Origin: Mediterranea sp. (in: CFB group bacteria)
Lineage (GTDB): Bacteria > Bacteroidota > Bacteroidia > Bacteroidales > Bacteroidaceae
Assembly: GCA_031262385.1 (NCBI GenBank)
Contig: JAISHU010000104.1
Location: 1-49,026, forward strand
Length of the DNA: 49,026 bases
Direction of reading: 5' to 3'
A model generated the notes under the pieces. The model made no database searches. It saw only the letters and a list, made by a program, of their open reading frames with translations, and was not told where the DNA came from. Shown piece by piece: positions 10,020 to 48,154 of the stretch. Position 1 is the stretch's first letter. Every line of letters begins with the position of its first letter. Made by a program: the position numbers and the translations under genes.

Positions 10020-10500
10020 CTGCTAACTCGTACTTTGCAAAAAAAGAGTGCTCAGCCGGAAGACAACGCACTCCGAAGCCGTAGCCAATTCGTTGCAAAC
10101 GCGAAAACAACGAATCAACTCGGCGGAAACAACGAATCATCCGCACGAAAACAACGAACTGTCGGCACGAAAACAACGAATCAACTGCCGGCTTAGCAAA
10201 TTATCCCGGCAAGTTAAGCTGTATTTCCCGGCAAATTATTGTGTTATCCCGGCAAGTTATCACGCTAACTTGCCGGGATAATTTCATAAAGTTCTTTTTG
10301 AGGCTGTTTTTTCGCGCTGAAGGCGCTTTTTGTTTCTTGACATAATTTCTTCATATCTTTCTGTAAGTATGCGGATTAAATAGCGTATTTTACATAGTTT
10401 AACGCGCTATACTCGCACGAAAGTCACCAAGCCGTCCCTTAGTCCGAAATAAGCCCGTTTTTCGAGGGTTCGTTTGACGTTTTGACACTTTGTCAATGGA
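10020..10500 (-). repeat. Locus A: intergenic mosaic repeat element (22-bp periodic) in the same family as locus B, inverted
   Basis: aacaacgaa at 10106, 10128, 10150, 10172 (exact 22-bp spacing). cccggcaa at 10205, 10227, 10248 plus an inverted copy at ~10269. 10455-10487 and 10394-10409 are inverse matches to locus B. Confidence 0.9.
10244..10281. repeat. Perfect 16-bp inverted repeat (hairpin) within locus A
   Basis: TTATCCCGGCAAGTTA – TCACGC – TAACTTGCCGGGATAA. Confidence 0.95.
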
Positions 10501-26041: not shown

Positions 26042-26058
26042 TCCCTCTCTTGTCATTT

Positions 26059-26460
26059 TGTCAAAACGTCAAACGAACCCCTCGAAAAACGGCTGTTTTA
26101 CGGACTGAAGTACGGCTCGTGACTTCCGATGCCCGTGTAGCGCGTTAAACTATCTAAAAAATAGGGCTTAATGTGCACTCATCCAGAACGATAAGCTCCA
26201 AAAATCTTTGCGAAGAAAAAGCGTGCTCAGCGCGAAAAAAAGTCCCCGAAAAGAACATTCCGAAATTATCTTGCCGAGTTAGCGCGATAACTTGCCGAGA
26301 TAAATCAACAATTTGCCGAGACAGACAGCTTAACGTGCCGGGAAAAATAGTTTTCCCGGCAGCCGGTTCGTCATCTCCGTGTAGTTGATTCGTTGTTTTC
26401 GCGCAAACAGTTTGTTATTTCCGTGCAAACAGTTTGTTGTTTCCGCGCAAACAATGCATT
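26059..26460 (+). repeat. Locus B: intergenic mosaic repeat element (21-22-bp periodic), inverted homologue of locus A
   Basis: NTTGCCGAG-type cores at 26270, 26291, 26312, 26334; second-module units at 26364, 26386, 26408, 26430, 26452 (exact 22-bp spacing); TGTCAAAACGTCAAACGAACCCCTCGAAAAACGG at 26059-26092 and TAGCGCGTTAAACTAT at 26138-26153 match locus A reverse complement. Confidence 0.9.
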
Positions 26461-32920: not shown

Positions 32921-33102
32921 TTAACTCGGCAAGTTAACACGCTATATCGGTAGTTTATAGCGATTATTCCGGCAAGTTATTTTATTATCTCAGTGATTCA
33001 CGTTTGTCAAACAAGTGATTCACGTTCGCCAAACAGGTGATTCACAAATGCCAAACAGGTGATTCACAAACGTCAAACAAGGAGTTGCCGCAATGAAACA
33101 CT
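32921..33102 (+). repeat. Locus C: 22-bp periodic intergenic repeat between convergent genes
   Basis: gtgattca at 32993, 33015, 33037, 33059 (exact 22 bp) with degenerate unit at 33081; ggcaagtta-type cores at 32928, 32949, 32971. Confidence 0.92.
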
Positions 33103-45170: not shown

Positions 45171-47543
45171 ATGATAATTGAGATGAAAAGAAACACAATT
45201 CTATTGTTTATTATGGCAGCGGTCGTTTTATTGACCGGCTGCTTGGGGGGCAATGTCTATGACCCGACTAAAAAGCCGGAAATTCCTCCCACAGAAAACC
45301 CGTTAGGAGAAGGCTTCACCGCCCCGCCCAGCTTCGATTGGACCATGTACAAGAGTATATCGCTTACCGCCGAAGTGAAAGACGAATTTAACGGGCAATA
45401 CAACTACTTGATAGAAGTTTTTGCGCAAAATCCACTGCTTACTTCTACTGCTACTCCCATTGCCACAGGCGTTGCCGGAAAAGGACAAAATTATACGGCA
45501 ACTTTGATTCTGCCTATACCGGCTACCGAACTGTATATACGTAAAACCGACCCCAAACAGCGCAAAGAGACCTATGCGTTTACTGTTCCCGCAGCATCGG
45601 GCAGTATCACATGCAAACTCTATCCCGGTGGCGCCGCTACCCGCGCAGTGGGCAGCAGCACGGCGGCTGTAGATGCGGCAAAAGCAGAAGGATTCAGCGA
45701 GCCGGAGGTTGACCCCAAAACGTGGTTTACACTGCCGAGTAACTGGACAGAACTACCTAAACAGGATGGCAGGAATGAATATCCGGGGGGTAGCAACTTT
45801 TTGATTGAAGGTACCTTTAATCGAGAAATTAATGCGAGTACGAATAGCGGTCGTGTCAAGGTCTATGTAAAAGGTACATGGGCTATCCCAACGAATGAAA
45901 TCCAGAGCAATTTGGACATTTATGTACTCAACGGAGGTAAAATTGAAGTTACTAAGGATGGATTCCAATTTGGGAAAGCATGTTCTATCTCCGTACAAGA
46001 AGGGGGTACAATAGATATTAAGGTAGCCAACAATGTAACCTTTCAAGATGCACCCTTTTACAACTTCGGCACGTTGAAATCGGGGACTAATGCCACCATA
46101 ACGTTTGGTGATAATATGGTGCTGAACTATGGCGATATATTAGTAAAGAAAAAAATGAAATTTGTTTCAGCAACAGTATCCAATCACGGTACTATCTCCG
46201 TCGATGAATGGCTGGACACCAATACTCCCAAAGATAAGTATTGGGTAAACTGGAACAGTGCCACTATCAAAGCGTACAAATGGACTGGTGGCGGTACTAT
46301 CTATAACGATGGATTTATAGAAGTAACCTTGCGCGAGAGTGCCACGGATGAGTTTATCTATAATGCTTGCACAATCATTGCCAAGGAGTCGTTTGACTTT
46401 ATTAAAATGACCTTAGATAAAGGTTCGTTGACCTCCGGACAAGACAGTAACGGGAAATGGCTTCCTGTTCCTTTAGTTACTTCACCGTATTCGACTGAAG
46501 TTACCATGAAGAACGGTTCGTTAATCAAAGCGACCAACTTGTTTTTCACAAATGGTGGTAGTACCGTAACAGGTGTTTCAGGTGGTGATATCTCCATGCT
46601 AAAAGCAGGAACAATCGAACTTGGAGAATACAACTGGGATACTCGGATAAGCGGAAATCTTGTATTGGAAAGAGATACAGTAATCAGTCCGAACGACAGT
46701 CAATGGAGTTCGTGCTTCCATGCCGAAGGCATCCCCACCACCGGTTACGACGAATCGCAATACACCGTAGAAACCTGCGGCGGTATACTCAACGAAGGCA
46801 ACGAAGGAGAGACTCCCACCAATCCCACTTATCCCCTTGTGACCGACGACGATACGGGTTATACCTTTGCTTTCGAAGACAACTGGCCTGTCTACGGCGA
46901 TTTGGACTTTAACGATGCGGTAGTCTCTATCGACAACATCATTACCGAACAACGTGCCGACGGCTCGCTGCAAGCAGCTACCATTAAAGGTAGTGTACGG
47001 GCTGTGGGTGCTTCGAAAACGCTGACTCTCGCTCTGCGTATGCAGACGATTCCCAACAGCTATCAGCTAATCAGTTCCGACTTGCATCGCTTTATGGGCA
47101 ACGCAACAGGCGACAACGAATTTATCAATACGAAAAAGGGAGGCTATACAAAGACACCCGCAACCTTTGAGGTGAAATATACCTTTAGTGGTACATCGGT
47201 GATGCCCGTCGACTTCAATATTAATATGGTGGATTTGTATATCTCGACCCCCTCGTGGAGCAACAAAACCATGTCCATAGAGATACACCTTCCCGATATT
47301 GCCCCCACCGACAAAGCCGACCCGAAACTATTCGACACGGGCGACGACGCTTCTACGTTGGAAGGTTACTACCTCAGCAAAGAGCGAATAGCATGGGCTA
47401 TCATGATTCCCGCTCCGTTTGCATGGCCGCTGGAATATAAAAATATTAAAGACGTATATCCCGACTTCAAGAGTTGGATAACCTCCGGCGGTACAAATAA
47501 TCCCGACTGGTATCAGAATCACAACGGCGATGTGTTTGAATAA
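45171..47543 (+). CDS. LruC domain-containing (DUF4842) lipoprotein
   Basis: Lipobox VVLLTGCLGG; C-terminal YPLVTDDDTGYTFAFEDNWPVYGDLDFNDAVVSIDNII…LTLALRMQTIP; central beta-solenoid-like region. Confidence 0.87.
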   Translation: MIIEMKRNTILLFIMAAVVLLTGCLGGNVYDPTKKPEIPPTENPLGEGFTAPPSFDWTMYKSISLTAEVKDEFNGQYNYLIEVFAQNPLLTSTATPIATGVAGKGQNYTATLILPIPATELYIRKTDPKQRKETYAFTVPAASGSITCKLYPGGAATRAVGSSTAAVDAAKAEGFSEPEVDPKTWFTLPSNWTELPKQDGRNEYPGGSNFLIEGTFNREINASTNSGRVKVYVKGTWAIPTNEIQSNLDIYVLNGGKIEVTKDGFQFGKACSISVQEGGTIDIKVANNVTFQDAPFYNFGTLKSGTNATITFGDNMVLNYGDILVKKKMKFVSATVSNHGTISVDEWLDTNTPKDKYWVNWNSATIKAYKWTGGGTIYNDGFIEVTLRESATDEFIYNACTIIAKESFDFIKMTLDKGSLTSGQDSNGKWLPVPLVTSPYSTEVTMKNGSLIKATNLFFTNGGSTVTGVSGGDISMLKAGTIELGEYNWDTRISGNLVLERDTVISPNDSQWSSCFHAEGIPTTGYDESQYTVETCGGILNEGNEGETPTNPTYPLVTDDDTGYTFAFEDNWPVYGDLDFNDAVVSIDNIITEQRADGSLQAATIKGSVRAVGASKTLTLALRMQTIPNSYQLISSDLHRFMGNATGDNEFINTKKGGYTKTPATFEVKYTFSGTSVMPVDFNINMVDLYISTPSWSNKTMSIEIHLPDIAPTDKADPKLFDTGDDASTLEGYYLSKERIAWAIMIPAPFAWPLEYKNIKDVYPDFKSWITSGGTNNPDWYQNHNGDVFE

Positions 47544-47574
47544 CCGCTAAGCATTTTCCCGCAAATCATCATTT

Positions 47575-47615
47575 AAAAAGCAACCCCGTCTCACTACGAG
47601 ACGGGGTTGCTTTTT
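47575..47615 (+). terminator. Strong terminator after LruC gene
   Basis: AAAAAGCAACCCCGTCTC – ACTAC – GAGACGGGGTTGCTTTTT, 18-bp perfect arms. Confidence 0.9.
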
Positions 47616-47826
47616 AAAACAATCTTCCTAATTTATTCGGAAGCTGTTTTGAATTTAGTGCTTGTTTCGTCCTGATTTTGGTTGACCGTAGTATCTCAAT
47701 CTTTTCCTCAAGCAAAGAGAAGGTGCACGCTAAAGGTGTGATGGACGCGTGATAAGCTGTTTTATAACTTTTCTTTCTTACATCCTTATCTTTACAGCTT
47801 ATTTTATTGTCTTTGCACCGCACATT

Positions 47827-47924
47827 CTTTACCGTCCGACCAACGTCGTACGAGCGTCCGACGATGGTTGTACGACCGTACGACGTTGGTCGGACGCTCG
47901 TACGACGTTGGTCGGACGGTAAAG
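47827..47924. repeat. Locus D: four tandem 22-bp units forming a perfect 36-bp-arm inverted repeat
   Basis: Units start at 47833, 47855, 47877, 47899; arms 47827-47862 and 47889-47924 (CTTTACCGTCCGACCAACGTCGTACGAGCGTCCGAC and its exact reverse complement). Confidence 0.95.
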
Positions 47925-48154
47925 GAAGTGCAGTATAAAAATAATATATTACTGATACATAATTATTTATCAGTAAATAACAACTACTAAACAATTCACT
48001 GCCTCCGGTAAGTTTCTTAGCATCTCCGCAGAAGACAGGCAGCTATCTGACAAGTAAAAGAGAAAGATAAGACCGAAAAGAGACTCGGGAGCATGAGTAA
48101 TAAAAATTATATCAATAAAATCAAAACGGTTTCTAATAATCTTCGAAAAAGATA

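Follow-up and report, generated by a model that had tools for sequence, protein, structure and literature searches.

A perfect inverted repeat upstream of an S41 protease gene as one copy of a dispersed, MITE-like element with a 22-bp-phased array of putative protein-binding sites

The inverted repeat and its setting

The window, meaning the whole stretch of 49,026 nucleotides that was analysed, contains an array flanked by a DUF4842-domain gene (45171-47543) and the start of an S41 PDZ protease gene. Direct reading of the sequence, together with folding, gives exact reverse-complement arms of 36 bp each on the forward strand (47827-47862 and 47889-47924), which enclose a 26-nt loop. The inverted repeat is composed of four 22-bp units, with cores identified from the sequence and by unit search at 47833-47852 (CGTCCGACCAACGTCGTACG), 47855-47874 (CGTCCGACGATGGTTGTACG), 47877-47896 (CGTACGACGTTGGTCGGACG), and 47899-47918 (again CGTACGACGTTGGTCGGACG). 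An earlier note on this DNA had described the arms, the loop, and the four units, and all lie where it had placed them. Its head-to-head arrangement of units 1-2 and 3-4 is accurate for the window copy but not for the family to which this copy belongs, in which the outer units alone are consistently inverted and the inner two are mostly direct or mixed. When up to three mismatches were allowed, the unit was found three times in the window, against 0.01 occurrences expected by chance. The perfect arms form part of a longer, imperfect repeat with 75-nt arms (47800-47874 and 47877-47951; 83%), and the minimum free energy of the single strand from 47780 to 47960 is -103.4 kcal/mol, compared with -45.3 +/- 3.9 for shuffles (z = -14.75).

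The DUF4842-domain gene has its own strong hairpin (47572-47618), separate from the array, which agrees with the earlier note that the array is not the terminator of this upstream gene. A run of U (T in the DNA) directly 3' of the array stem is absent, and a terminator scan also missed the array; an intrinsic terminator was rejected, the stem being without a T run. No Rfam match at the gathering score was obtained for the array, and the DUF4842-S41 gene order, sought for an orthologous empty site to set beside the window copy, was absent both from the congener matches and from the named relatives.

Arrays with the same period occur elsewhere in the window. Two inverted copies of another element (10100-10290 and 26050-26446), both flanked by genes that appear convergent, carry 22-bp arrays of the GCGAAAACAACGAATCAACTCG and ATTATCCCGGCAAGTTA types, and four 22-bp units (AGTGATTCACGTTTGTCAAACA), each made of two 11-bp palindromic halves, are present at 32992-33079.

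A dispersed element with an IS3-type left end

With the 98-bp core as the query, the search for further unit copies that the earlier note had suggested returned approximately 36 places in the organism's own draft genome (2.6 Mb, 171 contigs, 84% complete), mostly as matches of 94-98 bp. Flank alignment delimits a whole element of approximately 372 bp on the forward strand (47663-48034), many near full-length copies of which are present in the genome at 78-92% identity. It begins with a left terminus (47663-47688, forward strand; TGTTTCGTCCTGATTTTGGTTGACCG), which terminus search and IS comparison matched to the terminal inverted repeat of an IS from the IS3 family in the congener G076. A left segment (47689-47826, forward strand) common to approximately 20 copies leads into the array, and a right segment (47925-48034, forward strand), with a small palindrome at 47949-47976, is common to approximately 25 copies. 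Most arrays have four units, but one copy has three, one has five, and two have a single unit; some arrays carry right-type flanks on both sides, and in approximately seven the flanks have decayed to recognisable remnants. The element is short, multi-copy, and dispersed, and has no internal transposase gene, as is characteristic of MITEs, and the identity of the window repeat as a dispersed element is well supported. The array was not found in other species among 84,980 GTDB species, nor among 158 congeners. The element had no match in phages or plasmids and the array none in viral contigs, for want of which a phage or plasmid origin was rejected.

The intergenic regions of this genome consist of layered repeats. 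A second, unrelated dispersed repeat (48031-48125) directly adjoins the element, and approximately 20 other genomic places match this part without an array. At the start of another contig (C122; locus L084), a further inverted repeat (CTTTCAGCCGAACTCGC...) encloses the left terminus of the element, which there adjoins an array of a different family.

Of 157 genomes, 13 contain the left end (TGTTTCGTCCTGATTTTGGTTGACC, at 47663 in the window), and G076 alone gives 21 matches to it. One of the G076 copies bounds a 1569-bp IS, the inverted ends of which match at 21 of 25 positions, with a 3-bp repeat (GTC) outside; the OrfB of this IS exceeds the cut-off of the IS3 family model (160) with a score of 232.8 bits. 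The same genome carries a 251-bp element (L240) with the same left end, a 3-bp target duplication (GAC), and an internal 22-bp array, and in three further congeners (G150, G147, and G026) arrays with a different sequence follow the left end. These cases show a recurrent association of 22-bp arrays with IS3-type ends. The possibility, raised in the earlier note, of a match to the terminus of a known mobile element is thus borne out in part, at the left end. At three other loci in G076 (L247, L248, and L249), GTGAGGGTAAC-type repeats form an outer palindrome around the IS3-type end, as though its centre had been the insertion site, which recalls IS insertion into REP palindromes.

In the own-genome copies, no right-hand terminal repeat was found, a search within 3 kb for the left terminus in inverted orientation was negative, and no target-site duplication was identified, the right boundary of the element being ill-defined. 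The 84%-complete draft yielded no IS3 transposase (IS3 family match) and no Y1/RAYT transposase (PF01797). Insertion sequences are often missing from draft metagenome assemblies, and the absence of a transposase therefore carries little weight. An autonomous IS3 in this genome was rejected, none having been found in the draft, as was a RAYT-driven REP, given the absence of a Y1 transposase from it.

Across 126 units, the consensus is CGTMCGACSWWSGTCGKACG followed by a variable 2-nt linker, with six core positions invariant. Of the 87 steps between unit starts, 84 measure 22 bp and the remaining three 44 bp, and copies with flanks at only 31-67% identity retain a 94-96% core match. The unit and its spacing, and not the long hairpin, look to be what is conserved. 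At positions 4 and 17 of the unit, one C-type and one A-type half-site are combined in 93 of the 126 units, which is above the expectation under independence.

22-bp arrays across the genus

A sequence-free scan for periods of 13 to 45 bp was applied to the window, to 36 named relatives around the S41 gene, and to 1.15 Mb from 20 congeners. Intergenic arrays in the 20 congeners had a period of 22 bp in 19 cases, 21 bp in four, 23 bp in four, and 44 bp in two, with every other period represented at most once; the same lag scan detected no arrays in 400 kb of shuffled sequence. A period of 22 bp thus predominates among intergenic arrays across Bacteroides, and the unit sequences differ by species. 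The earlier note had remarked on a shared period in unrelated sequences, which is correct and extends genus-wide. Palindromy of the consensus units is enriched overall (combined p = 1.4e-7), and is absent in many arrays.

One congener unit (GACACYTGTGCTAAGTGTC) occurs in tandem and in 22-bp phase in 16 of 157 genomes; the search pattern was itself a doublet with a 3-nt linker, but did not impose longer 22-bp runs. The 22-bp arrays of the isolate Bacteroides sp. ET71, one of them upstream of its S41 gene, have this same core. Over the 60 units of this family, most core positions have 0 bits of variation and three linker positions have 1.4-1.5 bits, although part of the core was fixed by the unit pattern used in the search. 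Another congener (G016) has a dispersed family (CGTCCCACTGCAGTGGGACG) with a half-site one base off that of the own genome (CGTCCGAC); the arrays of the window's family and the G016 CGTCCCAC arrays had no orthologous positions in common in the flanks compared. Several species have 22-bp arrays with differing units ahead of the S41 protease gene (L096, L099, L104, L119, L266, and L272), as does the window, and the region upstream of this gene may be a favoured array site.

In three orthologous intergenic pairs (G115/G046, G135/G071, and G090/G016), the arrays are aligned in phase with their cores kept, and the linkers and the non-coding flanks have changed. The G090/G016 region is the coaD-S41 intergenic region, and third codon positions of its neighbouring genes are 63-64% identical. 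Slippage or conversion acting alone should also have made the linkers uniform; conserved cores with changed linkers at orthologous sites would instead point to protein sites lined up along one face of the helix. The persistence of arrays at orthologous sites favours either a host role or continuing homogenisation.

Putative binding sites, alternatives, and known systems

We interpret the window repeat as a copy of a dispersed element that is non-autonomous and MITE-like, with a core of four helix-phased, quasi-palindromic 22-bp sites that are putatively bound by protein; taken as a whole, this reading stands at about an even chance. Each unit would be recognised by a sequence-specific and probably dimeric protein, which would bind every two turns along the same helical face, with selection for binding maintaining the cores and the spacing. 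The element would have spread by transposition, perhaps via a transposase that is now absent or is missing from the draft, and the binding protein could be a host nucleoid or regulatory protein, or a transposase. Among the possibilities named in the earlier note (cruciform, long RNA hairpin, and operator array), an operator or binding array fits best, as the features expected of a phase-locked array are present, namely conserved cores, fixed helical spacing, and free linkers; both hairpin readings are weakened by the comparison of copies and by the missing U-run. Protein binding is the function that would best account for the arrays, although the case for it is evenly balanced. Gene conversion among copies could homogenise the cores with no protein bound, and unit palindromy is missing from many arrays despite its overall significance.

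An element of the same kind could also be purely selfish, namely a MITE with a minisatellite core that spread by transposition, with 22-bp units multiplied by slippage and homogenised by gene conversion, and with no host function, in which case the units may be transposase-binding sites. The IS3-type left end and the dispersal are in keeping with this, as are the 251-bp congener MITE with the same end, GAC duplication, and internal 22-bp array, and the changes in array length by whole units (1, 3, 4, or 5). However, linkers vary where cores do not, although slippage and conversion should homogenise both; the arrays outlast their flanks at orthologous sites; and a cognate transposase (IS3 or Y1) was not found in the own draft. 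We regard a purely selfish origin as possible but rather doubtful.

Alternatively, the transcript could form a long stem that terminates transcription or that stabilises or processes mRNA. The very stable predicted fold is consistent with this, and other 22-bp arrays in the window are located between apparently convergent genes. Against this, covariation between the array halves is absent from the 28 four-unit arrays, in which the mean number of Watson-Crick pairs is 32.96 of 43, compared with 34.7 after the halves were shuffled among copies. The window copy has five mismatched pairs of 43 and is the most nearly perfect hairpin of the 28, the other four-unit copies having 6-18. Given the additional mismatches in the other copies and the lack of covariation, the conserved trait is unlikely to be a hairpin, whether of RNA or cruciform. 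Gene context does not suggest a 3'-end function: among the 30 copies of this family with both neighbours called (by simple ORF calls), 11 lie between divergent genes, 15 between co-directional genes, and just four between convergent genes. The missing U-run, the failure of the terminator scan and of Rfam to recognise the array, and the terminator-like hairpin that the adjacent gene already possesses also count against an RNA element, which we consider improbable.

Extrusion of the perfect palindrome in vivo, as a cruciform or supercoil-sensitive DNA structure, would be in keeping with the perfect 36-bp arms of the window copy, but this copy is the extreme of its family with respect to mismatches, and such a structure is very improbable as an explanation of the array. 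An assembly artefact, to which the five copies at contig ends might point, is scarcely credible, in view of the approximately 36 places that have distinct flanks and were mostly assembled straight through, and of arrays of the same class in the single-contig congener assemblies G021, G040, and G060.

Returning to the binding-site reading, the arrays may, more tentatively, belong to a system that extends throughout Bacteroides, in which intergenic 22-bp-phased arrays turn over in unit sequence between species and keep the two-turn spacing. The DNA-binding protein for which they are putative sites would evolve fast, would form filaments or bind cooperatively, and would either organise the chromosome or control the expression of many loci. 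If the arrays do bind protein, they represent an undescribed layer of chromosome organisation or regulation in a major genus of the human and animal gut, and one that is immediately testable, as the array sites are known, dense, and species-specific. A constant 22-bp phase over unrelated sequences, with conserved cores and free linkers at orthologous sites, is unusual for minisatellites and provides a direct experimental handle. The repeat, at first sight of an ordinary mobile type, belongs to a class of phase-locked arrays that is unusual and extends over the genus.

No description of the 22-bp array class in Bacteroides was found in the open-access literature, and the nearest known systems, on our best reading, are BrickBuilt MITEs and REP/BIMEs. 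BrickBuilt of Porphyromonas gingivalis, a MITE, has IS5-like ends and a 23-nt minisatellite; it is present in approximately 19 copies, is confined to P. gingivalis and P. gulae, and has no transposase remnant (PMC4596501). Like the element described here, it belongs to the Bacteroidales, is intergenic and MITE-like, and has a short-period tandem array between a leader and a tail, whereas its 23-nt unit is unrelated in sequence to the 22-bp unit and its ends are IS5-like rather than having an IS3-like left end (PMC4596501). Its units are described as direct repeats, and the words "hairpin" and "palindrom" do not occur in the text of that paper (PMC4596501); furthermore, the 22-bp phenomenon is genus-wide with differing units. 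The IS3 family itself is represented by the left-end sequence, as on the 1569-bp congener IS3, but the element here is approximately 372 bp long, with no transposase and no identified right-hand repeat. Genome-wide sets of short intergenic repeats proposed as binding sites are also known from the TAACTGA direct repeats, although these are heptamers near start codons with a proposed post-transcriptional action and no 22-bp palindromic unit (PMC4679880).

REP/BIMEs are dispersed extragenic palindromes that are tied to RAYTs and reported to be protein-binding sites (PMC2817692). They resemble the arrays described here as dispersed extragenic palindromes in regular alternating, species-specific arrays (PMC2817692), but differ in that no Y1/RAYT gene is present in the own draft and in the fixed 22-bp head-to-tail phase found here. 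IS insertion into REPs is known (PMC1525189), in contrast to the IS3-type end here, which is part of the element. The BrickBuilt paper also mentions tandem repeats of 22, 23, and 41 nt noted in P. gingivalis strain W83 (PMC4596501), and the 22-bp class unites what have been separate reports: the 22/23-nt repeats of P. gingivalis, MITE-borne minisatellites, and REP/BIMEs.
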